A stretch of DNA of 25,590 nucleotides from a virus. The position numbers and the translations under genes were made by a program. This document shows, in pieces, positions 2,335-25,590 of the stretch. Position 1 is the first letter of the stretch, and the number at the start of each line of letters is the position of its first letter. The stretch covers positions 1 to 25,590 of IMG/VR virus record IMGVR_UViG_3300044843_000696; one strand, written 5' to 3'. Below the pieces are notes generated by a model. That model saw nothing but the letters and a program-made list of their open reading frames with translations. It was not told where the DNA came from and made no database searches.

Positions 2335-3123
2335 ATGGAAGAATCAATCTCAATCAATAGTTCAGAGTTGAATAAAATAGACTCTATTGCAGCAAATGTT
2401 CTTATACAAGAACCAAGGATTATTCCTCCAAAACTCTTTATAAGAAATAGCTTTGGCTTACTAGAAAACGATAATATAAATTATATTTTTAATGATGATG
2501 GCTCTATCAATTGGAGAGCAATGGTTAAAACACAATATCTTGTCCCAAATCGTCAAAGAACACAAGAGACAGATGTTTCAAAACTGGAAGATAAAGATCT
2601 TTTAATACTTCTTGGTGGAATTAAGGAGCTAGCTCAAATTAGAGGATTTACTAGTGTTGAATATAATGTAGTAACTGCTACCGATAATTATTTCGCAACA
2701 TCTTGTAAGATTACTTGGATACCTAATTATGAGACAGGAAATCGTCCTGTGACATTTGAAGCTCTTGCAGATGCATCTCTTGTAAATACTAAAGATTTTG
2801 CTCGTTATTTTCTTGCAGCTATAGCGGAAAATAGAGCATTTGTTCGTTGTGTTCGTAATTTCTTAAAGATCAATATTGTATCACAAGAAGAATTAGGAGA
2901 TGCCAAATTAGGGCTAGTAGCAAAAGAAGATACAGAAAAAGAAAATCCAATGAATCCAACTGTTTTATTGGAAAAAATAATGCAAGATAAAAATATTTCT
3001 TTCGATACCTTAAAGAAGAAATTGATTAAAGAAAAATTCGATGGAGCAGAAAGCTTTAATTTTATTAAAGATATACCAAAAAGTAAAGTATTTGAATTAA
3101 TAGAAAGACTTAAGAAAGTCTGA
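2335..3123 (+). CDS. Possible Rad52/DdrA-like single-strand DNA annealing protein
   Basis: 262 residues, beginning 20 bp after the glycosyltransferase gene, with no obvious Shine-Dalgarno. The middle part suggests the Rad52/DdrA-type annealing fold: a helix (INWRAMVKTQYLV), strands around VEYNVVTATDNYFATSCKIT and WIPN, then the helical signature AENRAFVRCVRNFLKI, reminiscent of the A-E-[NT]-R-A...R..R..L.I helix of phage Sak3/DdrA-like proteins. The C-terminal ~50 residues are Lys-rich and helical (LLEKIMQDKNISFDTLKKKL...), as in a DNA-binding tail. If correct, it would anneal single strands during phage recombination or replication. Family assignment is from pattern only. An unrelated phage hypothetical protein is the alternative. 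Its 3' end overlaps that of the convergent fibre gene. Confidence 0.4.
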   Translation: MEESISINSSELNKIDSIAANVLIQEPRIIPPKLFIRNSFGLLENDNINYIFNDDGSINWRAMVKTQYLVPNRQRTQETDVSKLEDKDLLILLGGIKELAQIRGFTSVEYNVVTATDNYFATSCKITWIPNYETGNRPVTFEALADASLVNTKDFARYFLAAIAENRAFVRCVRNFLKINIVSQEELGDAKLGLVAKEDTEKENPMNPTVLLEKIMQDKNISFDTLKKKLIKEKFDGAESFNFIKDIPKSKVFELIERLKKV

Positions 3124-3136
3124 TTTTAATAAAATC
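3106..3136. terminator. Two adjacent short hairpins at the convergent gene ends
   Basis: 3106-3121 is a perfect 6-bp inverted repeat (AGACTT, loop AAGA, AAGTCT). Directly next to it, 3122-3136 is GATTTT-AAT-AAAATC, another perfect 6-bp inverted repeat. They sit where the rightward gene (stop at 3123) and the leftward fibre gene (stop at 3110) overlap, and are flanked by short T runs on both strands. This is where a bidirectional terminator would be expected. The stems are short and AT-rich, so intrinsic termination strength is doubtful. Confidence 0.35.
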
Positions 3137-9100: not shown

Positions 9101-11860
9101 ATAGAATCCACTTCCTTCATTAGAATTAATATCATTAGCACTTTTTATAAAACCAGAAGGAATACCTGCTTGGCCGATATTTAATTCGCTAGTTATATTA
9201 GATCTTTCTGCTAGTAATATTTGAGTTGCAGTGGCGCTAAACTCATTAGTGAATGGTATCCAATCTGGACTTGTTCCACTAGGAGCAGAATCTATATTAG
9301 TAGTTGCTGCATACCAATAGTTAACACCGCCAAAACTATATTTTACAACATCTCTTCTTAAATTATTTCCAACATATCCAATTCCTGTAGACCATTCTCC
9401 TCTATATGTAATGCCAGGACCAGTTAAAGATCTTCCAGAATAACCAAATGCAGCATTTAGAATCATTCCTTCATTAGGGAAATCTCCATCAAGCGCTCTT
9501 ATCTTTATATAATAAATACCACCACTACTTGGTGTACCAAAAATTTGATTAGATGAATTTAGAGTTGTATTTATTCCTGGAGGAAAAATTGCACCATCAT
9601 CAACACCAGATAATGTTGTAGCGCTAATTGAGAAAGATGTTGCTCTAGAATTTGTTTGAATTTTATAGAAAAATGGTTCGTCTATTGGTGAACTTATATA
9701 ACTAGGACTTGTAAATATAGTAGAATTTGGTGGTCTAAATCCTTCAATAGCAGAGACAGAAACTGCATCAGATAATATAGAATTTTCATATCCAATTCCA
9801 GTATCATAGTAATTATTAAATAAGAATAATTTACCTGTTCCTTGAAAATCTCCACCAAGTTTAGCTCTAATATATGTATAATCTGGACCAATACCACTTG
9901 AGATTCCGCTAATATTTTTTTCTAGAATATCTATTTTTATTTTTTCAACATCTTTAAATCCGAATATATTTTTAGTTCCAGCATTCCCGCTAAAAAATAC
10001 TTGATTAACATTTGTTGCATTAATTCCAGAGATAATAACTTCGCCTAAATTATTATAATTAGTATTTGATGGACTATTAAATGATATAGTTGGAAGAATA
10101 TCAAAACTTTTATTAGCTGGTAATAAATATTCATCATTAAATTTATTTCTTTTGATCTTAATTTGAGATCTTGGATTTTGAATTTCTCTTGGTATTCTTA
10201 TTTTAATACCAGTTGAAGTATTATCTATCTTTATTCCACTTACGCTATAGTCTCCAGTTATATTTATTTTACCAGTTGGTGTATTAAAAAATATTTCTGA
10301 ATTAGTTAGGTTTCCATAATCTCCAGAATATGCAATTGGGCTATAAATTTCTACTTCATCAAGATATTTTGCTGCTTGTACCCCAGAAAGATATCTTATA
10401 TTGATAAGATCAGTATTTAATCTTACTGATGCTATTAATTTATCATTTGTATCTGGAGATACAATCTTTGTTCCAGAATTTGGATAATCAAGAGAATAAG
10501 CATATATCTCATTTGTTATATAATTATTTGGTAAAATAAAAGAAGCCTGGTGAGTAGATCCAGTGAGATAATTTACTGTAATCTTTTCTCGATTAATATT
10601 TTGCTGACCAAGATTAATATAATTTATTCTATGTAAATTTTTACCAGATATAGATACTGATCCTCCAGACAATAATATATCATTAGGATTAAATCCAGTA
10701 GGATCTAATGGTCTATATAAAATTTGTAATAATTCATCTGAACTATCTTCTCCAAAATTTGTAATAACATTGACTTTATTATTCTCTGCTAGATATGGAA
10801 TTTGAAAAACTAAATTTTCTCCATCGTAATTAAAATTTATATTCTTTAATGGACCCAGGTTTAAACCAGTTACAAATGTTAAATTATCTCCGCTTATTCT
10901 TATGTAAGATTCTTGATTATATCCAGTTATTGGATCTATGCTATAAATTTTAGGACTACCAAGGACTTGGAAACCAGTCTTAGAGATGCTTATAGAATTA
11001 ATAGTTAAATCTGTAGGCGCTTTGTATTTTAAATTTTCTACAAAAATAGCTTGATTTTTAGTTATATTTCTTGGTATTTTAAATTCTATAAATTGATTGA
11101 ATCCAGTATATTCAAATTTCTCATAATTTAAAATTATATTTGCATCTCTTCCATTTCCAGTTTGAGATTGTAAAATAAAACCAGTTGGTATAATTGTAAA
11201 TGATCCAGAATCAAATATGTTTAGAAATGCTATAGATCCACTTATGCCAGTGGATTGAACTTCTAATATACCACTTGAATTAATATCAAATAGTTTATGA
11301 TATGTTGAATCGATATATATCTTTTCACCAACATTATAACCAGTGCCATTATTTAACAATTCATATCCTGTTATTTTATATAATCCAGTCTTTTGCTCTG
11401 TTGGAATAATTTTATTATTTCTCGAATCAATAAAGAATAAATTTGGTGCGGGATAAAAATTAGTTCCACTTATTCTTACAAATTCGTCTGGAAATGCGCC
11501 TGTCTTTTCGATTCCAACAATGCTAGGTTGATCTAATACATTTAATTGAACAGTATTTGTAGATTTTCCTTCAAGATTGAATACAGAAAGATCATATTTC
11601 GTCTTTGTTACTCCTGTTGATATAGTGAAACCAACAACATCTAAATATAATGTATTATCAATTCCACTAACATCTTCTAATCTTCGTCCATATACATTAA
11701 AATAATCATTCGAATTATAAATATTTTCTCCAGAGACTTGTATAATACCTTTTTTAAATTCAATACCAGATAGTATTATTTTCTCACCAGTAACAGCGTA
11801 AACTATACTAGGACTTTGTATAAAAGGTGCTGATTGATTAATCTGTAAGATTAAACTCAT
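3110..11860 (-). CDS. Giant mosaic tail fibre/adhesin with IPT/TIG, CBM-like, YadA-like and LamG-like domains
   Basis: 2916 residues, Asn/Ser/Gly/Thr-rich, with no signal peptide seen. The N-terminal ~650 residues hold repeated IPT/TIG Ig-like units, for example PSIVGIEKTGAFPDEFVRIS (~111) and SPKIYSIDPITGYNQ (~302). A putative-Ig (He_PIG) domain lies at ~715-790 (PSSGGIYYIKIRA). A CBM5/12-like module is at 823-867. YadA-head-like repeats are at ~968-1080, a LamG/ConA-like domain at ~1900-2198 (FTISAWVYP, then WNHVAFSYD, ending YIGEVRIDDYAI), and a second YadA-like array at ~2700-2850. The C-terminal tail LPTSSGLVPVGGLYRSGDFI resembles the end of many phage fibres. The gene overlaps the upstream gene by 4 nt (ATGA) and has a Shine-Dalgarno AAAAAGGAAA. 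Its role is most likely host-surface binding from the virion. The reading as a fibre is inference from architecture and position. Confidence 0.8.
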   Translation of the reverse strand: MSLILQINQSAPFIQSPSIVYAVTGEKIILSGIEFKKGIIQVSGENIYNSNDYFNVYGRRLEDVSGIDNTLYLDVVGFTISTGVTKTKYDLSVFNLEGKSTNTVQLNVLDQPSIVGIEKTGAFPDEFVRISGTNFYPAPNLFFIDSRNNKIIPTEQKTGLYKITGYELLNNGTGYNVGEKIYIDSTYHKLFDINSSGILEVQSTGISGSIAFLNIFDSGSFTIIPTGFILQSQTGNGRDANIILNYEKFEYTGFNQFIEFKIPRNITKNQAIFVENLKYKAPTDLTINSISISKTGFQVLGSPKIYSIDPITGYNQESYIRISGDNLTFVTGLNLGPLKNINFNYDGENLVFQIPYLAENNKVNVITNFGEDSSDELLQILYRPLDPTGFNPNDILLSGGSVSISGKNLHRINYINLGQQNINREKITVNYLTGSTHQASFILPNNYITNEIYAYSLDYPNSGTKIVSPDTNDKLIASVRLNTDLINIRYLSGVQAAKYLDEVEIYSPIAYSGDYGNLTNSEIFFNTPTGKINITGDYSVSGIKIDNTSTGIKIRIPREIQNPRSQIKIKRNKFNDEYLLPANKSFDILPTISFNSPSNTNYNNLGEVIISGINATNVNQVFFSGNAGTKNIFGFKDVEKIKIDILEKNISGISSGIGPDYTYIRAKLGGDFQGTGKLFLFNNYYDTGIGYENSILSDAVSVSAIEGFRPPNSTIFTSPSYISSPIDEPFFYKIQTNSRATSFSISATTLSGVDDGAIFPPGINTTLNSSNQIFGTPSSGGIYYIKIRALDGDFPNEGMILNAAFGYSGRSLTGPGITYRGEWSTGIGYVGNNLRRDVVKYSFGGVNYWYAATTNIDSAPSGTSPDWIPFTNEFSATATQILLAERSNITSELNIGQAGIPSGFIKSANDINSNEGSGFYLGYDNSYNAGLPKFRVGNSGGYIKFDGLGLDIFGPLSGVLTTSRNVRNTDNTVGSEYSLSVGFNNRIETGANNSIAIGSNNLIHENTPNSFIFGENNIVTGGRRIAISAGSRNIISGDKNYESLDSVIVGGVNNTLYGSYSNIVGGKNNFIDSVTSGYSAISNQLFDVPVTGTTGAGIQNINIEIPKPRNSANYAILNSQEYTESLTGANGSQIISGNFKKSGNFLIPLPNQFYFNLSGRRNFDYSVYYDNKLTYETGIYTGLVSGRLTGIITGFLIQTLSYAYNPDLGSNHYGSFNGIGLGAGFISARLSGSDYYGRRTGIYTTLTSGNITMYGALLPDGTFAHSGLTGLWNGSNYGSSLQRLFYLTDINSGTTGNGNTQIKDLYGGTTLISKSGVFGSLFNTGGFNTSRILSTNNTAQFISGNGNIAIGYTLPYTNSFYTNYKNTYYHDFVNLDAEFIGYYNGANKGIGNYFYFYAPSGNPPIGRFGNSSGVGYVVDFNEKDGKVQIFWNTGLLTESAILPALSASSTSINSWPITGRINFHTGVFNVLLNNQLVIDNYKDNDFLYRNKDSKGFGLGAYTGSGFGGNHAIRNFNFSVGLNPYNEDYDTPSKCVKARGHVIYPNTFTEESYGGIDYSFGFNNTGIWYRGFTGEFEFKLNSKISDIRNSTLMFYWNAPRMNMLNTGSEPDLWWDYPKLWISGATGQNAQLWLQYQGNTSTNWLSNTQYISGYSPYGFNSLDFVQNNYSGIRPFQVNKWNKIRYEQTSAPIGDPNGYLSSFGNPFPGHNIRIYVNNILRISGITAAYTPYIDASNSGLHHHMGFRLFPNFNEFALDTNQREVFIKNFRFTGTNSVTVNDILDTQDKPSGNLIYNTNLVRTTYPSRDYGYYLTEFGYDNFYKNDARVITGYSGIGSRFQFGPGQIQKPFSGIIDINNLYTNSIINTGGISVTNSFVIREQKTTKIRNLSSSYYGVLPAKVETNAKYIEIDLGSGHAIEAHMTSGQADFTISAWVYPQVQKTPWLPNGADITGNRSNLKTLIAFVQETGTGVLKIANPNWTWGLFVGAVETTGYGDNSFGYATDLPYPYGSQRISLDTRPGVAGDPYSNTGAFLFGSFDGMTSSGTLCSNEVGYVPNHTLGRLWTTGTSFRGVSPSIFTGESPFNFVPTPTYGVLSEMRLIPNQWNHVAFSYDATKSYYYNNTRNIRYYINGNLVTSGRKNFSARASKGDATSYYGNFNKIYIGAMPVLSGVRRELVSHAFQGYIGEVRIDDYAITGESFNVQGFIDEFRRPLLHVKPSGSNIFISDNSNLKYNKKHLSTNYVTGYVDYLANFTQNFITGRYYPPTTFGMSSWINSVSENVYSGTFASASGRNSIENNKRLQFKVLLNSLNTSTNTGINVNFVNKFNTGVVNNFNYIVLPSYIQTGNIYNNFSKTGFKINNFTSSGFRVKIDNTLSLDTTGMFFVAQTGAFRGIDGNSGKFIEINSLYLSGANNLTGDQFFNDYTGWIRIPRLLNVDYINYNKPRFFGNVYTQSGSDIIDSQYSYIYRIGEVSGAAQYRQYFYSPAASIAFSSPDTYLPFSGGGMYSPPESNINLFDIITGGTGMPIPFYPTAYQIKILKDDYYNIEYAATFDKISGPDVSKSVSFRLQKSVNTGSNWFTVQEKIYTDSHIYSMHNTGIDYASSGDLYRVNVNVFYDPTGTNNEIYSSLISISRQEDFDNRRNIYVKLNNPNIDSYAINKNRMLTGLKIDYILTDEDIDYSTLRELLGEGAFGRVSLLGFEDVGSSSIFGGTGNYIKGLVNTIGGGINNSIIGDYNTIPGGRSNTIIDTPPGNLPPQALFSTILGGNFNTISGNVVDGVILGGETNLIMNSARDTAEEITATSIIGGKNNVISGSYSTILGGFNNIVSGAFGYGLGRNVFNTKSGSMVLSDATSNQLKPSFNENSLTLFFTNGMYITGVDTGSNRAPIIFALNSLPTSSGLVPVGGLYRSGDFIKIRLS
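3330..3760 (-). repeat. YadA-head-like repeat array, C-terminal (residues ~2700-2850 of the giant fibre)
   Basis: Repeats of the form (S/N)-x-I-(G/L/I)-G-G-x-N-N-x-I with 11-17 residue spacing, for example NTIGGGINNSIIGDYNTI, STILGGNFNTISG, SIIGGKNNVISGSYSTILGG. This fits the left-handed beta-roll of trimeric autotransporter heads (YadA head / Hep_Hag) and similar trimeric phage fibres. It suggests that this end of the protein trimerises. Confidence 0.7.
5265..6165 (-). other. LamG/concanavalin-like domain in the giant fibre (residues ~1900-2198)
   Basis: The segment begins YIEIDLGSGHAIEA, continues FTISAWVYPQ, has WNHVAFSYD followed by RNIRYYINGNLV, and ends GYIGEVRIDDYAI. These are the conserved strands of the LamG/pentraxin-like jelly roll (S-x-W-V/F, W-x-H-V-A, Y-x-N-G, G-x-I-x-E-V-R-I), a carbohydrate- or protein-binding fold. 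Binding specificity is not deducible. Confidence 0.7.
8640..8960 (-). repeat. YadA-head-like repeat array, internal (residues ~968-1080 of the giant fibre)
   Basis: The same repeat grammar as the C-terminal array: SLSVGFNNRI, NNSIAIGSNNLI, NSFIFGENNIV, DSVIVGGVNNTLYG, SNIVGGKNNFI. The NNSIAIG unit is closest to canonical YadA head repeats. It starts about 100 residues after the CBM-like module. Confidence 0.7.
9260..9394 (-). other. CBM5/12-like module in the giant fibre (residues 823-867)
   Basis: A pair of Trp (GEW and DWIPF) brackets a 45-residue unit with RRDVVKYSFGGVNYWYAATT and a SAPSGTSPDW ending. This is the W...(D)xVxY..G..YxA.......P....W pattern of family 5/12 chitin-binding-type modules. 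Related units occur at the N-terminus of gpM and inside gpL. Confidence 0.6.
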
Positions 11861-13596
11861 TCGTATATATTTCCTTTTTCATCTAATATTTGCACCATAT
11901 ACCTACCACTAGATAGATTATCTAACGGCAAAATACCTGTTAATGTATTTACATCTAATAATGTACAATTCATACTAAAATCATTATTTTTCTGTTTATA
12001 TAAATCTTCTAGATATCTAAATCTTACAGTAACACCATTGTATCCTGTACCATCAATAAGAATTGACTTCTTAAAGCTTAAACCACTTATTATTATATAA
12101 TCTCCTTTGTATCGATTACTATATTTTAATCCTGTAGCTAATGGAGCTTCTCTAAATGAATCTAAAGATATTTTTTCTAAACCTATAGAATTAACTAAAA
12201 TTAATTCTCCATTTATATAATAATCGGTATTAGGAATATTAAATTGCAAAGTATTCTTATTAATAATTTGAAGATTATTTACCTGTACCCTTTCTTTAAA
12301 TGAGTTTTCATCACCTGTAAATAAATATATTTTTTCATAGTAAGATCCAGAACCTTCTAAAACAAAAGTATTTAAATTTGTATTTATGTTATCAAAATTT
12401 AAATAGTTTATCTTCATCATTCCTGTACCTGATAGATTTAAACTACCACTAGGTAGATTTAGATAGAAATTATTATTATTTAATTCGTATAGATTTGAAT
12501 CTATATAAGTTAATCCAATTGAAGCTCTTCTTTGAGATAATGCACTACCAGAATTTGTTAATCCTTCTAAACTTGTTAAAATAAAAGGTGGATATAGTTT
12601 ATCATTATCAAATGTAATGTTATGATCTGTTGTTCCAGTAGCAAGATTTATTCCAGAGCATACATAATTTCCACTATCATAGACTCCAGTTCCATATTTT
12701 ACGGCTAGATAATAATATTTTATATCATTACTAAAAGTATCGCAGAGATTTATAGCAAATCCTGAGATTGTTTTCATATCTATATATGAGAATGGAGTAT
12801 TATAATTTAAATTATTAGAATTTCCTGTTCCAGTATAATTCATCGAATAGAATACGGCATAACCTGTATCTGAAAAATTGCTTTGTAAATTTACATCAAC
12901 ATATAGATTTCCAGTAGAGATAACTCCTGTATGACTCTTGATATTATTTGAATTAATTAAAGGGAAATTAAATATATGTTGTTCATAATATTTTTGAGAT
13001 AAGTCTTCTTTAAACTTTAAATCTAGAACTCTACCGCTAGCAATCGTTGGCTGAGAGTAGTTAATTATATTAAATTTATTTTTTTCTTTATTTAAATTAA
13101 AATTTTGGATTAAGACTATATCAGAATTTCCAGTATCTGAATATGTAGGCAAACTTATTGTTTGATTAGAATTTAAAAAATAATAATTAATATCATTCGT
13201 TATAGGTTCTGCTAATAAATATCCTGTCGTGATCGATGTTAAGACTTTGCCACTTACTGTTACTAAAGTTCCTAATGGACCTTGTTTTGGATCAAAATTA
13301 TCTATTTTAAATATTGGTAAAAAATCTAATTCATTTTGGGACATGACTATATCAGTAGATGAGGCTACAAGTTTACCTGTGGTAAGATTGTTTGGAACAA
13401 TAAAATTTCCCTCAGATTCTGAAATTAAGTTTAGATTTACTTTTTCTCCACAAAGTATTAAATCCTCAATATAGTCTAAATCCGTACCATAAAGCGTTAC
13501 TGTATCTCCAATATCTCCAGTCGTTAAAGATAAACTTGTTATCTTTGGAGCTACAGGTATATATTGAAAAAATTGTGATGAGGATACTAATGGCAT
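11857..13596 (-). CDS. IPT/TIG-domain structural protein (probable tail-associated adhesin)
   Basis: 579 residues. At least three Ig-like IPT/TIG units can be seen: APKITSLSLTTGDIGDTVTL (from ~16), FKIDNFDPKQGPLGTLVTVS (from ~95), and a C-terminal unit with KYSNRYKGDYIIISGLSFKK followed by GRYMVQILDEKGNIYE. The middle (~130-480) is Asn/Ser/Thr-rich beta sequence with many TG and SG dipeptides, like the giant fibre next to it. The start has GGAG 10 nt upstream. The gene begins 13 bp after the preceding gene and overlaps the fibre gene by 4 nt (ATGA), so the two are probably translationally coupled and act together. A fibre-attachment or fibre-base role is plausible; no enzyme motif was seen. 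Confidence 0.7.
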   Translation of the reverse strand: MPLVSSSQFFQYIPVAPKITSLSLTTGDIGDTVTLYGTDLDYIEDLILCGEKVNLNLISESEGNFIVPNNLTTGKLVASSTDIVMSQNELDFLPIFKIDNFDPKQGPLGTLVTVSGKVLTSITTGYLLAEPITNDINYYFLNSNQTISLPTYSDTGNSDIVLIQNFNLNKEKNKFNIINYSQPTIASGRVLDLKFKEDLSQKYYEQHIFNFPLINSNNIKSHTGVISTGNLYVDVNLQSNFSDTGYAVFYSMNYTGTGNSNNLNYNTPFSYIDMKTISGFAINLCDTFSNDIKYYYLAVKYGTGVYDSGNYVCSGINLATGTTDHNITFDNDKLYPPFILTSLEGLTNSGSALSQRRASIGLTYIDSNLYELNNNNFYLNLPSGSLNLSGTGMMKINYLNFDNINTNLNTFVLEGSGSYYEKIYLFTGDENSFKERVQVNNLQIINKNTLQFNIPNTDYYINGELILVNSIGLEKISLDSFREAPLATGLKYSNRYKGDYIIISGLSFKKSILIDGTGYNGVTVRFRYLEDLYKQKNNDFSMNCTLLDVNTLTGILPLDNLSSGRYMVQILDEKGNIYE

Positions 13597-13609
13597 ATAT
13601 ATTACTCCA

Positions 13610-14575
13610 TCATGCGGTTAAGATTTTAATCTGCTGAGTAAATGGTCTCTTCATTCTGGGTACTCTTGCTCTAACAGTTTGAGAGTTTAGAATTGTAAAT
13701 TCTTCTGCTGGAGTATTTCCAAATAAAACAGATACAGTATATTCTAAATTACTTCCACTAATAGTTACTATATCATTAATTTGTGCAGAAGATGGACTAA
13801 ACCCAGAAATAACTGCATCAGATATTAAGTTGTATTGTCTTATTGATATTTCTGTTGTTAATAGATCATCTGATTTTGTTTGAAAAGATTTCTTTGTTAA
13901 AAATCCAGAAGCTAGATAACTTTGTATATATGGTTTATCTATAGGACTAACAATAAAAGATACTCCAACCATTTGTCCAGAAATTTCAACTAAAGGGTTT
14001 AAGTTATCGCATACTATAGACGCTACAATCTCTTTTACTCCAAAGACTCCACGCCTCTCTTCTTTATCTCCTATATATATTTCTTGCCTAATGTCTGCAG
14101 AGTATGTAAAATTAGCAGATAAATAATTACCAGTTATATATTGATTGTTAAAGTTAGAAATAAGAACTTCATTAATATGTACTAGATTATCTTCAATAGG
14201 TTGATTAGAGTACGATGGATTAAAACTACCACTTGGAGATCTAAAGAAAACGATATCTGCATTACAATTAACAGGATTATGAGGAGCTAATCTAGCTGTG
14301 TAATTTTTTATATACCCAGTTTGTATAATGCCACCAAAATCAAATTTTATTGGATCATTTGAATATAGATTTTTCCTAATTGGATCTTCTCCAGTTAAGT
14401 AATATGAAAAATTTAAAGATCCTTGTATAGTATTTTCTGGAGTTATTTGATTTGTATATCTTTGACCAATCTCAAAATAGGGAGCAATTTGCGCTTCATA
14501 AGAAAGTTGAGCCTCTGTAGCAAGGATTGCTTCATCATTAATTTTAACTAAAACATTTTTTCCATTATAAAACAT
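13610..14575 (-). CDS. Tail-tube-like duplicated protein with C-terminal IPT/TIG domain
   Basis: 321 residues. The N-terminal 255 or so residues consist of two similar beta-rich halves, each with an Y/S-x-A-x...P-x-Y/I-x-I/L-G motif followed by a conserved strand: YEAQIAPYFEIGQR...GSLNFSYYLTGEDP, then YSADIRQEIYIGDKEERR. The upstream neighbour (262 residues) has the same two-half layout and aligns throughout (IxINxxxILAxxAxL, YxxxxxGDP, VxPxNxV). The last ~65 residues form an IPT/TIG unit (ISGFSPSSAQINDIVTISGS), as the lambda tail-tube protein gpV carries an Ig-like C-terminal domain. The start is 3 nt after the upstream stop and no Shine-Dalgarno is seen, so translation is probably coupled. 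The tail-tube call is an inference from strand pattern, duplication and context. Confidence 0.55.
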   Translation of the reverse strand: MFYNGKNVLVKINDEAILATEAQLSYEAQIAPYFEIGQRYTNQITPENTIQGSLNFSYYLTGEDPIRKNLYSNDPIKFDFGGIIQTGYIKNYTARLAPHNPVNCNADIVFFRSPSGSFNPSYSNQPIEDNLVHINEVLISNFNNQYITGNYLSANFTYSADIRQEIYIGDKEERRGVFGVKEIVASIVCDNLNPLVEISGQMVGVSFIVSPIDKPYIQSYLASGFLTKKSFQTKSDDLLTTEISIRQYNLISDAVISGFSPSSAQINDIVTISGSNLEYTVSVLFGNTPAEEFTILNSQTVRARVPRMKRPFTQQIKILTA

Positions 14576-16840: not shown

Positions 16841-19156
16841 ATGAGTCAACAAGCTAGCGAATATTTCCTATCTGCGTTAGAGGCTCAAAGATCGATCAAT
16901 ACTCATATTCATGAAGTCGAGCCTACAACTCCAATTATGTTATATGAAATCAATTTAAATGAAATTAAACCAGCTACAATTACATATCCAACTGTTAATG
17001 GACCAATAAGAGATGGTGTTCTAAGAATTCATAATGATTTTAATTTATTTAATATAAATCGAGGTATTATAAAATGGAAAGGCAATTATTATTTTCCATT
17101 TCCAGTTTTTGGTGAACAATTTGATATCACTTCAAATGGTACAATTCCAACGCCAAAAGTAAAATTTTCAAGTCAGTTTTTAGATGATGAATATAATTCT
17201 TTCTATAAATATATTCGTATGCAAATTAATGAACTTAAAGATATTGTTGGGGCAAGAGTCACAAGGAGAAAAACTTTTGTTAGATATCTAAGTCCAGATA
17301 ATTTTGCTGGAAATGTAAATCCATTTAATGAATTTAGTCAAGCTCCTTGGGCTTCAAGAGATGGAGATACATTAACCGTAAGAGCAAATAGCCCTATACC
17401 TCCTCCAACAGACATGTCAAAATGGTTAATATATTATCCAAAACCTAATTATGGCTCAAGAAATAAAATTTTTACATCAATATCTACTGATGATAGATTA
17501 AGAACTTTAGGAATTCAATTACAACAACAGAATTATTCGATAGAATCAACAGATTTTTTTAGTTTGTTAACAAACGAAAATATAGAACTATCTAATTTAT
17601 TAGATAATTATTTTTCTGTAAATGTATTTGCTATATCAGGAAATTCTTCAAATTATTCCACTATTATTCCTGACTATAAAAACGAATTCACGCTTTTAAA
17701 TGAAACAGGAAAATTAAAATTAGTTTGTAGTTCTTTGAATATAGATTCAAATACAGGAATAACTGGACAATTAATTCCATATAATTTAACTTTTTCTGAG
17801 AATAGTGGTAATATAGTTAGTTTTATATCTATAAAATCAAATGTAGACAGTATTGGAGTAAATACAAATTATTATATTAAAGATCAATATAATACTGGAA
17901 TTAATGTAATATTTTCTAGTGGTTTAGATGGTAATTTTGATTTGAATTATTTAAGTTTAAAAACTGGATATTATACTGGAATTAATCCATACTCCAAGGA
18001 GCAAATAAAATTAGCAGCATTAAGAATAGAAAAAAATTTTTCAACAAGTACTTCGGGCGACTTAAATATAAACTTTCCATTTTCATTCTCTAATGTTCCT
18101 AAAGTTTTATTTAATGCATGGTCTGAATCAGGATTTATTTTTGATAAATATATACAAAATATTACTTCAACTGGGCTTACAATTACTGCAACAAATACTG
18201 GATTAGAATCTTTTGATCTTGGGGTTCAAAAATTTAATATTATTGCTACAGACTATATTTATGAAGATGCTACGCCAACTGGAGCAACTCAGATTTTTTC
18301 TTCACAAGCTAACTTAGCTATTGAATACAAAGACCAAATGATAACTCAAAATATTGAAAATTATGAAACAGAATTGACTCCAGATATTTTTTATATAGAT
18401 AGAAAAGTACAAGAAGATTCTACTAATGTTGTTTATGAATTATCATCCCTACTTGATGTTGAGGGTGTAAAATTACCTTCACGAATTTTGTTGTCTAAAA
18501 ATTGTCCATTTACATATAGAGGAGAAGGGTGCATATATGAATATTCAAATAGAATAACCTCTATACATTCTGGAATTTATGGAGAAGTTTCTCTTGATTG
18601 CTCTCCAACAGATGATGTCGTTACGAATAAAAACTTATCATATTCCCAAATGGTGATGGGATTACAATCTGCACCACCAGTTGCAGATGCGAATGATAAT
18701 CCATTTACTGGAGCTATAAATCAAACTAATTGGATCGATAAAGGAGCATGGAATCAAAATATAATTTATACAAAAAATAATTTTGTTTTTATTGAAAAAA
18801 ATGATATTAAATATTATTTTGTCTGCACTCAAGATCATACAGCTAACGCAATTAATGCGCCACCTAATCAAAATTATTGGTTATCAGACACATGTTCAAA
18901 AACTCTAAATGGTTGCAGATTAAGATGGAAAGAAAATCCTAATTTTCAACAAAAAACATTTTCTGGTAGCTATAATTATAGCGCATATTCTACTGCAGTT
19001 GGACAGAATGTTGAAATCATAGATAATTTAATTGCTTATAATATACAATCTCCAAAAGATGCGAATGGAAATCAATTAATTGGTCTATTACCATTTGGAG
19101 GTTTTCCATCTGTAGAAGGAAAATATCAAAGTCAGCAAGGACCACAATCTTCATGA
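16841..19156 (+). CDS. L: Minor tail protein gpL (Fe-S tail-tip protein), greatly enlarged
   Basis: 771 residues, against about 232 in lambda gpL. The core is in pieces: LYEINLNEI...GPIRDGVLRIHNDFNL and GARVTRRKTFVRYL (~33-150), DIFYIDRKVQEDS...LSSLLDVEGVKLPSRILL (~515-552), then the cysteine-rich end. Four cysteines C555, C564, C685 and C692 give C-x8-C and C-x6-C (CSKTLNGCRLRW), the same pair spacing as the 4Fe-4S ligands of lambda gpL as I recall them. Insert 1 (~155-505) is Asn/Thr/Gly-rich beta sequence ending in a segment like H-type-lectin or fibre-tip units (FPFSFSNVPKVLFNAWS...FNIIATDY). Insert 2 (~570-684) holds a CBM5/12-like module. The last 4 nt overlap gpK (ATGA). A weak GCAGG precedes the ATG. 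gpL is a central ring or hub part of the tail tip. Confidence 0.9.
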   Translation: MSQQASEYFLSALEAQRSINTHIHEVEPTTPIMLYEINLNEIKPATITYPTVNGPIRDGVLRIHNDFNLFNINRGIIKWKGNYYFPFPVFGEQFDITSNGTIPTPKVKFSSQFLDDEYNSFYKYIRMQINELKDIVGARVTRRKTFVRYLSPDNFAGNVNPFNEFSQAPWASRDGDTLTVRANSPIPPPTDMSKWLIYYPKPNYGSRNKIFTSISTDDRLRTLGIQLQQQNYSIESTDFFSLLTNENIELSNLLDNYFSVNVFAISGNSSNYSTIIPDYKNEFTLLNETGKLKLVCSSLNIDSNTGITGQLIPYNLTFSENSGNIVSFISIKSNVDSIGVNTNYYIKDQYNTGINVIFSSGLDGNFDLNYLSLKTGYYTGINPYSKEQIKLAALRIEKNFSTSTSGDLNINFPFSFSNVPKVLFNAWSESGFIFDKYIQNITSTGLTITATNTGLESFDLGVQKFNIIATDYIYEDATPTGATQIFSSQANLAIEYKDQMITQNIENYETELTPDIFYIDRKVQEDSTNVVYELSSLLDVEGVKLPSRILLSKNCPFTYRGEGCIYEYSNRITSIHSGIYGEVSLDCSPTDDVVTNKNLSYSQMVMGLQSAPPVADANDNPFTGAINQTNWIDKGAWNQNIIYTKNNFVFIEKNDIKYYFVCTQDHTANAINAPPNQNYWLSDTCSKTLNGCRLRWKENPNFQQKTFSGSYNYSAYSTAVGQNVEIIDNLIAYNIQSPKDANGNQLIGLLPFGGFPSVEGKYQSQQGPQSS
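18731..18880 (+). other. CBM5/12-like module inside gpL (residues 631-680)
   Basis: NWIDKGAWNQNIIYTKNNFV, then IKYYFVCTQDHTA, then PPNQNYW. It shares the bracketing Trp, the Y...N(N/D)xV...YY.....H core and the Pro-x-x-W ending with the modules in gpM and the giant fibre. It sits between the second and third Fe-S cysteines, a position that has only about 22 residues in lambda gpL. Confidence 0.6.
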
Positions 19157-19899
19157 ACCTAGAGTTTAACCTTCAACTTAAAGAAAAGATTAAGAATGAA
19201 AGTATTAAAAAATATCCACAAGAAGTTTGTGGTTTTATCTATTTTGACCAAAATACATATAAATTTGATATTTATCCATGTAAAAATACAGCAAATCAAA
19301 AAAACAATAATTTTTTAATCTCTCCTCAAGAATATTTATCATGCACTTTATTAGGGAAAATTACAGCATGCTATCATTCTCATTCTAATGATAATTTAGA
19401 ATTTAGCGAAATGGATAAAGAGAATAGTAACAAATATAATATACATTATATACTTTATAATGTTAAATATGATGAATTTAAATTTTATAGTCCAAATTCT
19501 GAGAAGAACCCCTATATTGGAAGACCATTTATGTTAGGTAGATCAGATTGTTTTACATTAATGCAAGAGTACGCTTTAAAAGAAGAGAATGTTAAGATTA
19601 ATTTTCCAAAGATAAATTCTTATCCAAGATCATTAAAAGATATTAAAAGTTTATATGAAAATAATTTTATAGAACAAGGTTTTGTTAAATTAGATAAGGA
19701 TACTCCTTTGAAAAAATCAGATGGATTAATGATGCTTTTTCCCAGTGTTTCAGAAGAATATCCAACTCATGCGGCTGTTTTTCTAGGTAATAATTTAATC
19801 CTACATCAACCTTATAATTCTTTTTCTTGTGTAAATTTATATGATAGCTTTTATAAGAAACATACAAGTTATGTTTTAAGGCATAGGAGCAAACTATAA
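19153..19899 (+). CDS. K: Tail assembly peptidase gpK (JAMM/MPN + NlpC/P60)
   Basis: 248 residues, the usual gpK length and domain order. The N-terminal JAMM metalloprotease domain has Glu24 (PQEVCG) and the intact zinc motif H75-S-H77-x7-S85-x2-D88 (HSHSNDNLEFSEMD). The C-terminal NlpC/P60 cysteine peptidase domain has Cys133 (GRSDCFTLM), His206 (THAAVFLGN) and His218 (LHQP), a complete Cys-His-His set. Such proteins are needed for tail-tip assembly and may cleave either a tail protein or peptidoglycan. The start overlaps gpL by ATGA and the stop overlaps the gpI start (TAATG). Both active sites look functional. With self-processing domains in the next two genes, this operon carries four potential proteolytic centres. 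Confidence 0.93.
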   Translation: MNLEFNLQLKEKIKNESIKKYPQEVCGFIYFDQNTYKFDIYPCKNTANQKNNNFLISPQEYLSCTLLGKITACYHSHSNDNLEFSEMDKENSNKYNIHYILYNVKYDEFKFYSPNSEKNPYIGRPFMLGRSDCFTLMQEYALKEENVKINFPKINSYPRSLKDIKSLYENNFIEQGFVKLDKDTPLKKSDGLMMLFPSVSEEYPTHAAVFLGNNLILHQPYNSFSCVNLYDSFYKKHTSYVLRHRSKL

Positions 19900-21212
19900 T
19901 GGTTAAGGTTAATCTACATGGTTATTTGGGTGAAGAATTAGGTTCAGAATGGAACCTAGAAGTTTCAAGCGTTGCCGAGGCTTTTAGAGCAATAGAAGCT
20001 AATACTCAAAAATTTACTAAACTACTTATTGAGCAAGCAGAGAAGAATGCTAAATACGAAATTTTAATAAATAATCGTCCAGTTTGGGTTCCAAAACCAG
20101 AAAAACTACCTCAAGAATTAAAAGATTTAAAAAGAGAGCATTTTGAAATATTGAATAAATCAGAAATTGTTATGAATTTCGGAAAAGAATTGAAAACAAT
20201 CGATGTTGTTCCAATTTTAGAAGGTGCTGGTGGAGGCGGAGGTGGTGGAGGTGGTGGAGGATGTTTTCCATCTGGAACAAGAATATCTACGCCTAATGGT
20301 TTATCAAATATTGAAGATCTAAAAGAAGGAGATAAGATTTTATCTTTTGATAAAGATGGGAAAATTCACGAAGATATAATAGAAAAAACTTTTTCACATG
20401 AATCTAATAAGATTCTAAAAGTTACTTTATGGGGTGGAAAAATTATAAAAGCTACTCCAAACCATTGGTTTTTAAATGAATATAATAGATTTGCGCCTCT
20501 TGAAAAATTTCAAATTGGAGATGTATTAATTCATGAAAGCGGAGATGTTCTTCCAATAGAAAATATAGAAGAAATAGGTTTCGAAAAAACTTATAATTTT
20601 CATGTTAAAGAATATCATACCTATATTGCAGATGAAATAAGAGTACATAATGGAGGAGGTGGTAAAGCTGGTGGAGGAAAGGGAGGAATGGGTGGTGGAG
20701 TTAAAGGTATCTTTGCTATATTTTTAGGTATTTTATTATCACCTATAACTGGTGGAGGATCTCTTGGTCTATTAGGAGCTTTACTTCCAGCTATAGTTGG
20801 TTTAATCTCTCTAGGAGTCTCAATGTTGTTAATGAAACCACCACCAATGGTAAGTCCACAACAAATCGCTAATCCTTCTGCAGATTTTGAAGCTTCGCCT
20901 GATAGTGGTGGAGGTGAACCTTCTTATACTTTTAATGGACCAGTCAATACGGTAGGAGAAGGTGGTCCAATTCCAATAGGTTATGGAAGATTAATTGTAG
21001 GAAGTCATCAAGTATTTAGTTCTTATGATCAATTATATCGTATACAGTCTAGAGCTAATAAATATGATAGTGCAGGTAAACCTCCAGAGGATGCAGGACA
21101 ACAAAACTATCCAACTAAAAGTTATTACTTTACTCATTATGGTACGGCCATAGATATTCAAGATGTACAAGGAAACTCCTTGTCAGATTCTTCATTAAAC
21201 GCAGGAAATTAA
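19899..21212 (+). CDS. I: Tail assembly protein gpI with embedded Hint (intein-like) domain
   Basis: 437 residues, about twice lambda gpI. Residues 1-108 are the gpI N-terminal ubiquitin-like domain (VKVNLHGYLGEELG, VSSVAEAFRAIEANT, YEILINNRPV). An 11-Gly run (111-121) leads into the Hint domain (Cys122-Asn251), followed by a second Gly-rich run (252-270), a strongly hydrophobic stretch of one or two membrane-like helices (~271-315), and the gpI C-terminal domain (FNGPVNTVGEGGPIPIGYGR, LIVGS; ~345-376). Without the Hint domain it would be an ordinary gpI with a continuous Gly-rich linker. The start has AGGAG upstream and overlaps the gpK stop; gpJ begins 1 nt after the stop. In lambda gpI is needed for tip assembly but is reported absent from finished virions, so processing here is plausible. 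Confidence 0.9.
   Translation: MVKVNLHGYLGEELGSEWNLEVSSVAEAFRAIEANTQKFTKLLIEQAEKNAKYEILINNRPVWVPKPEKLPQELKDLKREHFEILNKSEIVMNFGKELKTIDVVPILEGAGGGGGGGGGGGCFPSGTRISTPNGLSNIEDLKEGDKILSFDKDGKIHEDIIEKTFSHESNKILKVTLWGGKIIKATPNHWFLNEYNRFAPLEKFQIGDVLIHESGDVLPIENIEEIGFEKTYNFHVKEYHTYIADEIRVHNGGGGKAGGGKGGMGGGVKGIFAIFLGILLSPITGGGSLGLLGALLPAIVGLISLGVSMLLMKPPPMVSPQQIANPSADFEASPDSGGGEPSYTFNGPVNTVGEGGPIPIGYGRLIVGSHQVFSSYDQLYRIQSRANKYDSAGKPPEDAGQQNYPTKSYYFTHYGTAIDIQDVQGNSLSDSSLNAGN
20262..20651 (+). other. Hint / BIL-like autoprocessing domain in gpI (residues 122-251)
   Basis: 130 residues with all splicing blocks and no endonuclease. Block A: CFPSGTRISTPNG with Cys1, then LKEGDKILSFD. Block B: KATPNHWF with Thr186 and His189 (TxxH). 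Blocks F and G: YNFHVKEYHTYIADEIRVHN with His250 and Asn251. The residue after Asn is Gly, not Cys/Ser/Thr, so canonical splicing is unlikely; N- and C-terminal cleavage, as in bacterial intein-like (BIL type A) domains, is expected. Confidence 0.88.
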
Positions 21213-21213
21213 T

Positions 21214-24200
21214 ATGGCTAAAAAATGTAAAGATTGCGATCCAAATAAATATATTGAAGGACTTGCATATCGCGGAGAAAATGGAGTATCTTTTGATAAT
21301 TTTAATAATTATAACGATATTGGACAACCATATGATGCTAATAATGAGCCTACCACAGATATGCTCGCAAATGTTGATGACATGCTTGATGCTTATAATC
21401 CAATATTTTCTCCTGGTTCATTAAGGTCTTGGCCAGTGTCTCAAAATAATGCGATAAAAATTAATGGAATTGATAATAGTCGAGGATTTTGGTTCGTTTG
21501 GAGTTTAACAGATGGGTTAATTATGTATGGAAGCCCAGGAGTTGGTATAACTCCAGCATCAATAACTGCGGCTTATCAAAATTTTATAAATAAAACCGTA
21601 TCAAATGCAACGGTTTTATCGGCGATAAAAAATGAACCATTTATAACACAATTTCAAACAGATACATTACCATCTTATTTTACATTTAATGGTTTCAGTT
21701 CTATTGCAGAAACGAATTCAAATGATCCTATTAGATTTTCTGATGTATATGATGTTAGTTATTCTCAAAATGGTAATGAAGTTAGCGTGACTTATAGTAA
21801 CCATGGTTTAATTGTAGGAGACAGAATTTATGTTATTTTTTCAAGCGGAAGTAATCTTGGATTAAAAACTTATGGAACAGTTAATTATGTTAGTGGAGAT
21901 TTATTTAGATTTACTTATGCAACAAGATCGGTAACTACTAGTGGATTTGCACAATTATATACATATAATATCACAAAAAATAAAAATTTCATAAAAAATA
22001 AGATTAATATCGTTGGGTATGATACAGGTTATATTACTACTCATGTACGTGGTAGCAAAGTAGTCAATGTAGGTACAAGAAACAAACCAGTTTATGAAAC
22101 AGAAACATTTAAATCAACAAGAAGTATTACTATAAAATGTCAAAGTAGTGATATTCAAGATCCAATGTATGTTACTAGTGCGCCAACAATAAGTTTATTT
22201 AAAGGGCAGTCTATTAGTTATACTATAACAACGAATTTAATATCTTCAAGTCAATTTAGTGTTTACGTACCACCAAAAACAAAAGATTTACTTCAATATT
22301 TAAATTTATCTTTTAATCATCAAACAAAAACTATATCTGGTACAGTTTCTAATAGTATTAAAGATCAGATAGAAATACAAAATCTATTATTTACTATTCG
22401 TGGCCCAGATTTTGATTCTGGAAACCAGAAAGAATTTAATCTAAGTGCTATAGTTGGGAAACAAGCAACTACTGGCCCATTACCAACTATTTCTGCATTT
22501 ACTTATGGTGGTTCAGTTGGAGATAAATTCAGCAATTCAATACGCGGATTAAATGGAAAACAAAGGATCATAGCAATATCTTCTTTACCTGATGGACTTT
22601 CTTATAACGCTACAAAAAATGTAATATCAGGAACAGTTAAACATGCTGGAATTTTTTACGCATATGCAAGCGCTTCTAATGATAGAGGAACAACATCAAA
22701 AGTAACTTTAACTTTTAATTTTACAGATTATATTGAAAGAAATCCAAATGAAGGAGCTTCTTTTCCTTCTACAATTAATTTACCTCAAGGAAACTTTGAT
22801 ATTATAAAAAATAATAAATTTATTATAAAATCTTTAATTAGTAGTCGAACATCTATATTTTCTCCAAATTTAGGCGATTTTATTAAATATAAGAAAATTA
22901 ACAAGAATGAATTTGACAAAATCCGTAAGGATGGATATCCTGACGGGATTCAATTAGAAGGATTGCAAATCAACTATGACTCAACGAATGCTAATTTTTT
23001 AACTTTTATTCCTGGTAATAGTAAAGATGCAGAAACGTGTCTTTGGATATCAGTAGAAAATATACGTAATCCTGCTCGTGAATTTAGAAATATAATTGGT
23101 ACAATAGACATTAATGGCACATACGATGTTGATTTTGCATCTGCTGGGCTTGTAGATGGTATAGGTAACGCTTGTTATCCACCAGATAGTACAAATGGAC
23201 CAGTTTCAAAACCTTATTCACAGAATATAGATGTAACGTCTGGCGGTAATACTAAAACTGGTATAAGTGCTGATCCAGCTCAAAATGTTCCAATTATATC
23301 TATGAGTCCATCAACAGTAGAGCATCAAGTGGTATTTGATTCTGGCCCTAGTTTTGACACAACTTCTGAATTTGCAAACCAAAGATTACCTAAAAGCAAG
23401 CTTTTAGCTTACCCAAATGGAATTCCAAATGCAAATGGAACATATACTTATTATGTAAGATTTACAGATAGTTGTGCGTTTAATTATATCTTTACAAGAT
23501 TTACAATGTATATTGGAGTAACTCTTGCCCCAAGAGCTGGAGACGTTTATTCTTGCGTCTTCAAAGGAACATGTTTTGCAAAAGGAACAAAAGTAAAAAC
23601 TCCAAAAGGCGACATCGAAATTGAAAAAATTAAAGTAGATGATGAAGTTTTAGCTTTTGATGAAAATGAGGATATTCATATTTCAAAAGTTATAGATTTT
23701 ATAGATCATAATAAGGAACCTCAACCTATATATCAAATAGAATTAGAAGATGGTACAATTATCAAATCTACATTAAGTCATCAATTCCTAGTAAATGGAG
23801 AATTTAAATTCCTAAACGATATTGAAGTGGGTGAGAATTTAACATCTTTCGATAAGAAAAAGCTACAGATTAAAAGTAAAAAATATATTGGCATGGATGT
23901 TGTTTACAATTTAGAAGTAGACAAATATCATACTTATATCGCTGAAAATATATTTGTTCATAATGGCCGTGGACCTGGAATAAAGATAGGAACTGTAGAA
24001 TGCAGCAGAAAAGGTGGGTGTCGAATTTATACTTCAAGAGGATGGCAAACAAAACGTGCATATAATTATTCAGAGAACGTTACTTTAACTTCATCTTCTA
24101 TCCCAGCAAATTGTACTACTCTTGTTAGTCAAGCTGCTGCAACTTCAACCATAATTAATTATGGTTATCAATATAGAAATAGCCTTCTTGAATCAAAAGA

Positions 24201-25590
24201 TATAGGAATAACATCTTTAACAAATATATCAATTCTTGATGTTTTAGGCGAAGGACCGATTGAAGGTATTGTTGATTATGAAATTATACCAAACCCTGGT
24301 TTTCAAAAAGGAGATATTGGATATAAAAATGGCGTTACTATTAAAAGATATCCAGGGAATTCCTCTCTTATTAGATCTGTATATTGGAATGAAATTCCAT
24401 TAGCAGACAATACATATCCAAATAATGGAAGTTTAAATTTTGAGTTTATAAGATTAAAATTTGATAATGGAGATTCTGCACCAAGACATACAAATATAGA
24501 TGAATTGAAAAATATTAGTCTTGAAGAAGAGTATTATTCTAGACAAATACAAAATGGTATTTATGTTAATTATTTAAAGGCTAGAGATGAGAATGGTACA
24601 GTAATAGCAGAACAAATTAAATTACCTAAGAGATTAACTAGTACCAAAACAGTTGGTTCAAAACTATTTGGAAAAAGAAAATTCCAAGATGGTTCAGAGA
24701 AAACTTATAAAAAATCAATAACTATTCTTACTAAAGATCTTTATGGATTAAAATTGCATATAAAAGCTTTGAGTTTATTTAAACAAATTGTAGATTTAAC
24801 TATTTGGGACACATCAGATCAAGCAGCTGAGAATAGCGTAGGTGGTAGAATTGATAGACAGAGTATGACATTTAAATTATATCTAAAAAGAGTAGATCGT
24901 GGGGTAGATTCAGGTGGACTCGTTATCACTCCTATTAAACCTGATTTAAATCTTCCAGAAGAATATTCTACATTAATAATGACTGGTAAGTTAAATGCTG
25001 GACCATATATTGAAACATTTGAGTGGACAGGATTAGACAAAGAGACAAATGACAATACAATTGGATGGGAAATAGAAATAGAACCAACTTATACAGAGAG
25101 TGTTGATGCAAATATATTATTAAAATCCGCTATAGACTCTATTACAGAAATATATAATGATTTTCTTGTTCTTCCTCATACAGCAGGAGTAATGACAACT
25201 TTTGATGCAAGATTTTTCCAAAGTATTCCACAAAGAGCCTATGATACAAGATTACTAAAGGTAAAAGTTCCAACTAATTATAATCCATTTAGTAAAACAT
25301 ATGATCCTCCTATTTGGGATGGTACATTTAAACTAGCTTGGACAGATAACCCAGCTTGGTGCTTTTATGATATAATTACGAATAAAAGATATGGACTTGG
25401 AAAATATATTGATCCACAATTTACAGATAAATGGACACTTTATGAAATTAGTAAATATTGTGATGAGCTTGTTAGCGATGGTAGAGGTGGTCTTGAACCA
25501 AGATTCACATGTAATGTTTTAATTAGTACAAGAGAAGATGCTTATAAAGTAATGAATGATATGGCGAGTGTCTTTAGAGCTATAGTCTAT
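21214..25590 (+). CDS. J: Tail-tip host-specificity protein gpJ with 786-residue extension and Hint domain, 3' partial
   Basis: The frame is open from the ATG at 21214 to the window end: 1459 codons, no stop, so the gene continues beyond. Residues 1-~320 are unrecognised (start MAKKCKDCDP, a CxxC). Two cadherin/putative-Ig (He_PIG-like) units follow at ~324-416 (FNHQTKTISGTVS) and ~419-504 (SLPDGLSYNATKNVISGTV). Residues ~505-786 are unrecognised beta-rich sequence. The Hint domain is 787-917. The gpJ core then begins (~1007: ILDVLGEGPIEGIVD) and continues through IWDGTFKLAWTDNPAW, KRYGLGKYID, WTLYEISKYCDELVSDGRGG and EPRFTCNV, all hallmark gpJ segments. In lambda the GPIEG motif is near the N-terminus, so everything before ~1000 is extra. 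gpJ binds the host receptor. It starts 1 nt after gpI with GCAGGA upstream. Confidence 0.92.
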   Translation, partial: MAKKCKDCDPNKYIEGLAYRGENGVSFDNFNNYNDIGQPYDANNEPTTDMLANVDDMLDAYNPIFSPGSLRSWPVSQNNAIKINGIDNSRGFWFVWSLTDGLIMYGSPGVGITPASITAAYQNFINKTVSNATVLSAIKNEPFITQFQTDTLPSYFTFNGFSSIAETNSNDPIRFSDVYDVSYSQNGNEVSVTYSNHGLIVGDRIYVIFSSGSNLGLKTYGTVNYVSGDLFRFTYATRSVTTSGFAQLYTYNITKNKNFIKNKINIVGYDTGYITTHVRGSKVVNVGTRNKPVYETETFKSTRSITIKCQSSDIQDPMYVTSAPTISLFKGQSISYTITTNLISSSQFSVYVPPKTKDLLQYLNLSFNHQTKTISGTVSNSIKDQIEIQNLLFTIRGPDFDSGNQKEFNLSAIVGKQATTGPLPTISAFTYGGSVGDKFSNSIRGLNGKQRIIAISSLPDGLSYNATKNVISGTVKHAGIFYAYASASNDRGTTSKVTLTFNFTDYIERNPNEGASFPSTINLPQGNFDIIKNNKFIIKSLISSRTSIFSPNLGDFIKYKKINKNEFDKIRKDGYPDGIQLEGLQINYDSTNANFLTFIPGNSKDAETCLWISVENIRNPAREFRNIIGTIDINGTYDVDFASAGLVDGIGNACYPPDSTNGPVSKPYSQNIDVTSGGNTKTGISADPAQNVPIISMSPSTVEHQVVFDSGPSFDTTSEFANQRLPKSKLLAYPNGIPNANGTYTYYVRFTDSCAFNYIFTRFTMYIGVTLAPRAGDVYSCVFKGTCFAKGTKVKTPKGDIEIEKIKVDDEVLAFDENEDIHISKVIDFIDHNKEPQPIYQIELEDGTIIKSTLSHQFLVNGEFKFLNDIEVGENLTSFDKKKLQIKSKKYIGMDVVYNLEVDKYHTYIAENIFVHNGRGPGIKIGTVECSRKGGCRIYTSRGWQTKRAYNYSENVTLTSSSIPANCTTLVSQAAATSTIINYGYQYRNSLLESKDIGITSLTNISILDVLGEGPIEGIVDYEIIPNPGFQKGDIGYKNGVTIKRYPGNSSLIRSVYWNEIPLADNTYPNNGSLNFEFIRLKFDNGDSAPRHTNIDELKNISLEEEYYSRQIQNGIYVNYLKARDENGTVIAEQIKLPKRLTSTKTVGSKLFGKRKFQDGSEKTYKKSITILTKDLYGLKLHIKALSLFKQIVDLTIWDTSDQAAENSVGGRIDRQSMTFKLYLKRVDRGVDSGGLVITPIKPDLNLPEEYSTLIMTGKLNAGPYIETFEWTGLDKETNDNTIGWEIEIEPTYTESVDANILLKSAIDSITEIYNDFLVLPHTAGVMTTFDARFFQSIPQRAYDTRLLKVKVPTNYNPFSKTYDPPIWDGTFKLAWTDNPAWCFYDIITNKRYGLGKYIDPQFTDKWTLYEISKYCDELVSDGRGGLEPRFTCNVLISTREDAYKVMNDMASVFRAIVY
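23572..23964 (+). other. Hint / BIL-like autoprocessing domain in gpJ (residues 787-917)
   Basis: 131 residues. Block A: CFAKGTKVKTPKG, then VDDEVLAFDENED. Block B: IIKSTLSHQFLV with Thr853 and His856. Blocks F and G: VYNLEVDKYHTYIAENIFVHN with His916 and Asn917, followed by Gly918. No endonuclease insertion. It separates the extra N-terminal region from the gpJ core. Cleavage after Asn917 would leave a gpJ beginning GRGPGIKIG, similar in style to the Gly/Lys-rich start of lambda gpJ. Confidence 0.88.

Follow-up and report, generated by a model that had tools for sequence, protein, structure and literature searches.

A BIL-type Hint domain at the junction between an N-terminal extension and the tail-tip hub of a lambda-like phage gpJ

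The tail-tip hub protein gpJ of an uncultured lambda-like phage carries a Hint domain between a long N-terminal extension and the hub proper. By its fold, catalytic residues, absent +1 nucleophile and variable flanks, this domain is an A-type bacterial intein-like (BIL) domain, a known kind of domain in a new setting. From the features described below, we put at about even the chance that the Hint frees itself from the translated precursor, with extension and hub ending up mostly as two separate chains.

The DNA analysed here, referred to as the window, is an entire IMG/VR virus record of 25,590 bases, which bears a lambda-like tail module on the + strand with the starts of M, L, K, I and J placed by profile matches at positions 16275, 16841, 19153, 19899 and 21214, respectively. 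The gpJ-like hub gene (21214..25590, + strand) encodes 1459 residues here and runs off the 3' end of the record; a near-identical contig (L004) sets the full length at about 1808 residues, and the frames of L003 and L004 measure 1813 codons from stop to stop. Both the homology of the core to gpJ families (phrog_2589, 8.7e-72; phrog_31, 9.3e-68; residues 1283-1459) and the M-L-K-I-J gene order identify the product as a lambda-like gpJ, a tail-tip hub that governs host recognition and tail opening. Families and gene order are shared with lambda, whose gpI and gpJ, in contrast, have no Hint and whose gpJ has no extension. Elsewhere in the module, gpL (16841-19153; 771 residues) has its two Phage_tail_L parts separated by a long insert and gives a sub-threshold H-type lectin match. 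The minus strand encodes, within 3110-14575, a 2916-residue protein, a protein of 579 residues that lacks family matches and a TIG-domain protein (13610-14575), and this block is adjoined by a glycosyltransferase family 9 gene (1145-2314).

The Hint domain maps to positions 23572..23964 (+ strand), that is, to gpJ residues 787-917, according to profiles, predicted fold and the match to the BIL structure 2LWY. These residues match PT-HINT above the cut-off (7.1e-9) and the Hint module at 7.8e-8; the intein_Nterm signature (TIGR01445) begins at residue 787 and the intein_Cterm signature (TIGR01443) stops at residue 917, which renders the coordinates given in the original prediction exact. By sequence, the domain matched 2LWY at 2.5e-8, and inteins were also hit. 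In an AlphaFold model of gpJ residues 1-1040, the Hint region reached a pLDDT of about 75-92 and superposed on 2LWY (TMt 0.87, rmsd 1.8) and on the gp41-1 intein (TMt 0.90), with Tetrahymena BIL2 (6TMM) also among the fold matches. The predicted catalytic set (Cys1, TxxH, His-Asn) is complete. It comprises the block A nucleophile Cys787 (Cys1; 23572..23574), the block B motif TLSH (T853-x-x-H856; 23770..23781) and the block G pair His916-Asn917 (23959..23964), and block F contributes His906 (23929..23931); all lie on the + strand. Asn917 is followed by Gly918, so that the +1 position holds no nucleophile. The domain spans 131 residues, with no insert between blocks B and F and no homing endonuclease.

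We then compared 36 tail-tip Hints, from gpI and gpJ of about 25 virus contigs. Cys1, TxxH and HN were each present in all 36, the block F histidine in 25 of 26 aligned Hints, and the +1 residue was always G, R or M (C, S or T in 0/36). Mean identity among the nine gpJ Hints in the window's group is 53%, with 25 invariant columns that include all five catalytic positions; the eight relatives are 47-78% identical to the window's domain. The dN/dS ratio was 0.12 between the window and its nearest relative (L005) and 0.08 between L008 and L009; across tail-tip Hints it was mostly 0.04-0.3, with 0.46 in one low-divergence pair. These ratios indicate that the gpJ Hint is under purifying selection. 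A chance open reading frame is excluded by the nine distinct sequences, their invariant catalytic residues and the dN/dS of 0.12, and the recurrence of tail-tip Hints makes an origin by chance or artefact unlikely. The joint conservation of Cys1 and HN further argues that both ends of the domain react. Phage tails contain many passive beta domains and the activity of A-type BILs varies, so that the Hint could be conceived as folded but inert, retained in the virion as an extra tip domain; we deem this improbable, as Cys1, TxxH and HN stay invariant at about 50% overall identity, in several gpJ and gpI settings, which is hard to explain without catalysis.

With the A-type BIL of Clostridium thermocellum (2LWY) the domain shares the HINT fold, Cys1, TxxH, the terminal HN, the absence of a +1 nucleophile and hypervariable flanks. 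The differences lie in the host protein, here a phage tail-tip hub (and the plug protein gpI), and in a placement that recurs, in separate phage groups, at the N-terminus of gpJ. Phage genes for helicase, terminase and ribonucleotide reductase contain class 1 inteins with the same fold and motifs A, B, F and G. The gpJ Hint, however, has no C/S/T at +1 and no endonuclease, the latter not being decisive since mini-inteins also lack one, and it lies outside any conserved active-site motif, in a variable linker among the window's relatives and in a Gly-rich leader in other gpJs. A mobile class 1 intein was therefore rejected on the +1 residue and the variable insertion site. PT-HINT is the best Pfam name for the domain, which would suit a pretoxin Hint releasing a C-terminal toxin in the style of polymorphic toxins. 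This reading is scarcely credible: the Hint is followed by the conserved hub of gpJ, to which several phage tail families match and which is embedded in the M-L-K-I-J module, and neither a toxin domain nor an immunity gene was seen behind it.

Upstream of the Hint, the 786-residue extension (21214..23571, + strand) appears to carry Ig/cadherin-like beta domains. Relatives in 20-odd contigs also have it, and from residue 3 onward its N-terminus (KKCKDCDPNKYIEG) does not vary. Its He_PIG match is weak in the window and significant in L007, and its fold matches include the SraP adhesin and cadherins; a search of solved structures with the extension as query gave no match. The original prediction had described about 786 foreign residues and had suggested a chaperone, capping or adhesin segment that Hint chemistry would release or re-join. 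The extension is indeed real and of that length, but it is conserved through the phage family rather than foreign, and its Ig/cadherin-like make-up renders an adhesin plausible while lending nothing to a chaperone or capping role. Downstream, gpJ family matches and the junction alignment define a variable linker and the hub core (23965..25590, + strand). The GPIEG motif that opens the hub (residues 1014-1018; 24253..24267, + strand) has G1014, P1015, E1017 and G1018 invariant across 15 aligned gpJ sequences and lies 96 residues past Asn917, close to the 90 or so anticipated. The alignment over relatives shows both flanks of the Hint at this junction to be variable and poorly conserved, and the residues right after it are hypervariable (RSYVTR, MGYSSG, GGHAPR, RYGANR). 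Conserved sequence resumes about 35 residues beyond this stretch, so that the normal gpJ N-terminus (GRGPGIKIG) proposed to follow the Hint is only partly right, and the idea that cleavage would restore it is not supported.

Three states of this junction were found among the window's relatives. The Hint is present in the window/L003, L005, L006, L007, L008, L009, L012, L018 and L046; six distinct relatives (L013-L017 and L033) have no Hint and hold extension and hub in one frame; and in L038 the two are separate genes, split at the junction. In the Hint-less records the profile search found the gpI Hint only; the profile used was likewise blind to the gpJ Hint of L012, a divergent one that is evident by alignment. 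In contigs of 68-96 kb, Hints were found in gpI and gpJ only. The L038 extension is a 748-codon frame ending in ...GDVYSCRYT, followed by TAG, an N codon and TAA, and its hub gene begins ATG GGA TAT, preceded by AAGG. Given the two in-frame stops, the resemblance of this AAGG to a ribosome-binding site and the new start codon, a single sequencing error is an unlikely source of the split, which is known from one contig. L038 groups beside fused relatives in the gpJ-core tree (support 99/97), and the split state is thus probably derived. In the gpI-flank tree the Hint state takes about three changes, with gain and loss not firmly separable. As far as one contig can say, extension and hub work as split chains in L038, which argues that a covalent link is dispensable and that the Hint sits at a real junction between the two, as had been claimed. 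On the other hand, the single chain kept by the six Hint-less relatives argues that a tip can work without cleavage.

How such a domain would act can be anticipated from studied A-type BILs. Their chemistry consists of thioester formation at the N-end and Asn cyclisation at the C-end, with cleavage dominant and ligation by aminolysis possible (PMC4031507, PMC7664689); they give 'predominantly cleaved products' (PMC7664689), and in the Magnetospirillum BIL splicing was seen only after the +1 residue had been replaced (PMC4031507). In gpJ, Cys787 would attack the Thr786 carbonyl (N-S shift) to yield a thioester at the N-end of the Hint, and cyclisation of Asn917 at the C-end would set the Hint free. 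The main products would be the Ig-repeat extension and the gpJ hub, held together non-covalently in the tip; in a minor share, the newly freed amine of Gly918 may attack the thioester and so link the two chains again. Cleavage at both ends would be expected as the main result because A-type BILs mainly cleave and Gly918 cannot serve as a splicing nucleophile. The self-processing, its products and their fate in the virion are all predictions from sequence. Cleavage is favoured by the invariance of the catalytic set at 53% mean identity, the low dN/dS, the split in L038 and the presence of Hints near the same point in two other gpJ groups. Against it stand the fused frames of L013-L017 and L033, which imply that one chain works too, the varying activity of A-type BILs and the situation in short-leader gpJs, where the Hint breaks up a leader motif and ligation would make it whole again, so that splicing fits at least as well.

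The original prediction had proposed a survey of gpJ homologues for Hints at the same position, and other gpJ groups do carry them just before the hub N-terminus. In two such groups, one or two Hints lie within a Gly-rich N-terminal leader and directly precede the hub. Leaders of about 17-75 residues were seen in L087, L090/L091/L092, L099, L101, L102 and L103, the Hint of these short-leader gpJs being located in the Gly-rich run, and two Hints stand in tandem in L105 (from 2377) and L109 (from 4452), separated by GGGGKGG and each with a complete catalytic set. In the Hint tree, the Hints of these groups branch apart from those in the window's gpI and gpJ. For comparison, gpJ of 15 named Hint-less phages usually opens with a short leader ahead of the hub, and this leader carries a hydrophobic-x-G-x-(K/G)-G motif together with a Gly-rich run.

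This arrangement bears on the main and serious rival to cleavage, in which the Hint cuts itself out and its flanks are mainly joined again. By the BIL route, Asn would cyclise and the freed amine of the C-flank would then attack the thioester, to give a Hint-free fusion of extension and hub, the domain being an intein-like passenger settled in low-complexity linkers. Were the Hint removed and the flanks ligated in L087, L090, L101, L102, L103 and L105 (for example VVIEGSG, Hint, GGSGKG), the leader would resemble that of named phages without a Hint (UAntarctica, RIQGSGGGSK; H4907, WIEGAGGGGKGG). The Hint-less relatives of the window are likewise fused in one frame, and BILs can ligate even when no nucleophile stands at +1 (PMC4031507; Aranko 2013 as cited in PMC7664689). 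However, the lack of C, S or T at +1 in all 36 Hints removes the efficient route, studied A-type BILs are dominated by cleavage, the hypervariable flanks at the window's junction leave no visible selection on a ligated product, and L038 works split. We hold predominant splicing to be possible, if on the unlikely side.

The same gpJ leaders offered a separate observation. In 14 of the 15 named lambdoid phages (L121-L135), the N-terminal hydrophobic-x-G-x-(K/G) motif of gpJ resembles, by eye, the tail of the gpI ubiquitin-like domain of the same phage (AIEGAG and WIEGAG in H4907; IVIGNK and FLIGNK in PMBT14). The two may share one recognising partner, perhaps gpK.

A second Hint lies in the neighbouring tail assembly protein gpI (19899..21212, + strand; phrog_32, 2.3e-25, and phrog_4554), at residues 122-251 (20262..20651, + strand; PT-HINT, 1.4e-13). 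An alignment of 16 sequences gives the order ubiquitin-like N-terminus, Gly tract, Hint, Gly tract and C-terminal plug part, and in the window's group the Hint is present in every complete gpI sequence (17 distinct ones). Hint and Gly tract are clear in the alignment and the N-terminus matches phrog_32; the AlphaFold model of gpI is poor outside the Hint, and the ubiquitin-like fold is taken from Iyer 2006 (PMC1779556). Iyer and co-workers described this domain and the Gly tail at its end, which they proposed as the site where the JAB domain of gpK cuts (PMC1779556). In lambda, the plug of the tail is formed by the C-terminal part of gpI, and the N-terminal part is not resolved in the virion (PMC10721106, PMC11101478). 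In the window, gpK (19153..19899, + strand; JAB protease and NlpC/P60) retains an intact JAMM motif (HSH-x7-S-x2-D), and replacement of a lost JAB protease by the Hint was accordingly rejected. An obligate partnership between the gpI and gpJ Hints was also rejected, since gpI Hints stand beside Hint-less gpJs in L013-L017, L033 and L038, and L087, L090 and L105/L109 combine gpJ Hints with Hint-less gpIs.

The gpI arrangement recalls ciliate BUBL loci (BIL2, 6TMM), where ATP-free transfer of a ubiquitin-like domain to a substrate is carried out by the adjacent BIL (PMC8616854). In gpI, too, the putative ubiquitin-like domain ends in a Gly tract directly before the BIL; the differences are that gpI is a phage tail protein with one ubiquitin-like unit and a plug domain after the BIL. 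By this analogy, the gpI Hint might form an ATP-free thioester at the Gly tail and pass the domain to another tip protein, possibly to the N-terminal amine that the gpJ Hint would free, and the JAB protease of gpK would serve as the matching deconjugase. We judge this very improbable; if true, the phage tip would be assembled by E1/E2-free ubiquitin-like conjugation.

When 50,697 named phage records were searched by tblastn with gpI, gpJ and both kinds of Hint, no Hint-bearing gpI or gpJ turned up, and a literature search found no paper on a gpI or gpJ Hint or on autocatalytic maturation of either protein. Scans of the genome collection found nothing with the gpI query and cyanobacterial Hints only with the other gpJ group. 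Hints of the gpI type were seen in unannotated proteins of named Ruminococcus phages (NatCom_3870 and relatives; L089, PV036417.1), at up to three places per genome. Further Hints were noticed in a 1329-residue protein beside a PhoH-like gene (L084:2713-6702; two Hints, the second ending in Ser-Asp, not His-Asn), at the C-terminus of a fibre-like protein (L085:3820-6411) and inside a Gly-rich fibre-like protein (L111:4479-5789). BIL-type Hints may thus be spread more widely across phage tail proteins.

Although present in no named phage record searched, the tail-tip Hint recurs in several uncultured lambda-like groups, and the features gathered here suggest that self-catalysed cutting is probably how the tip for host recognition matures in some phages. 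If so, siphophage tail assembly would include an extra maturation step, the tail-tip Hints would be natural substrates for learning how BILs choose between cleavage and ligation, and these phages would provide a testable setting for the long-open roles of the gpI ubiquitin-like domain and the gpK JAB protease.
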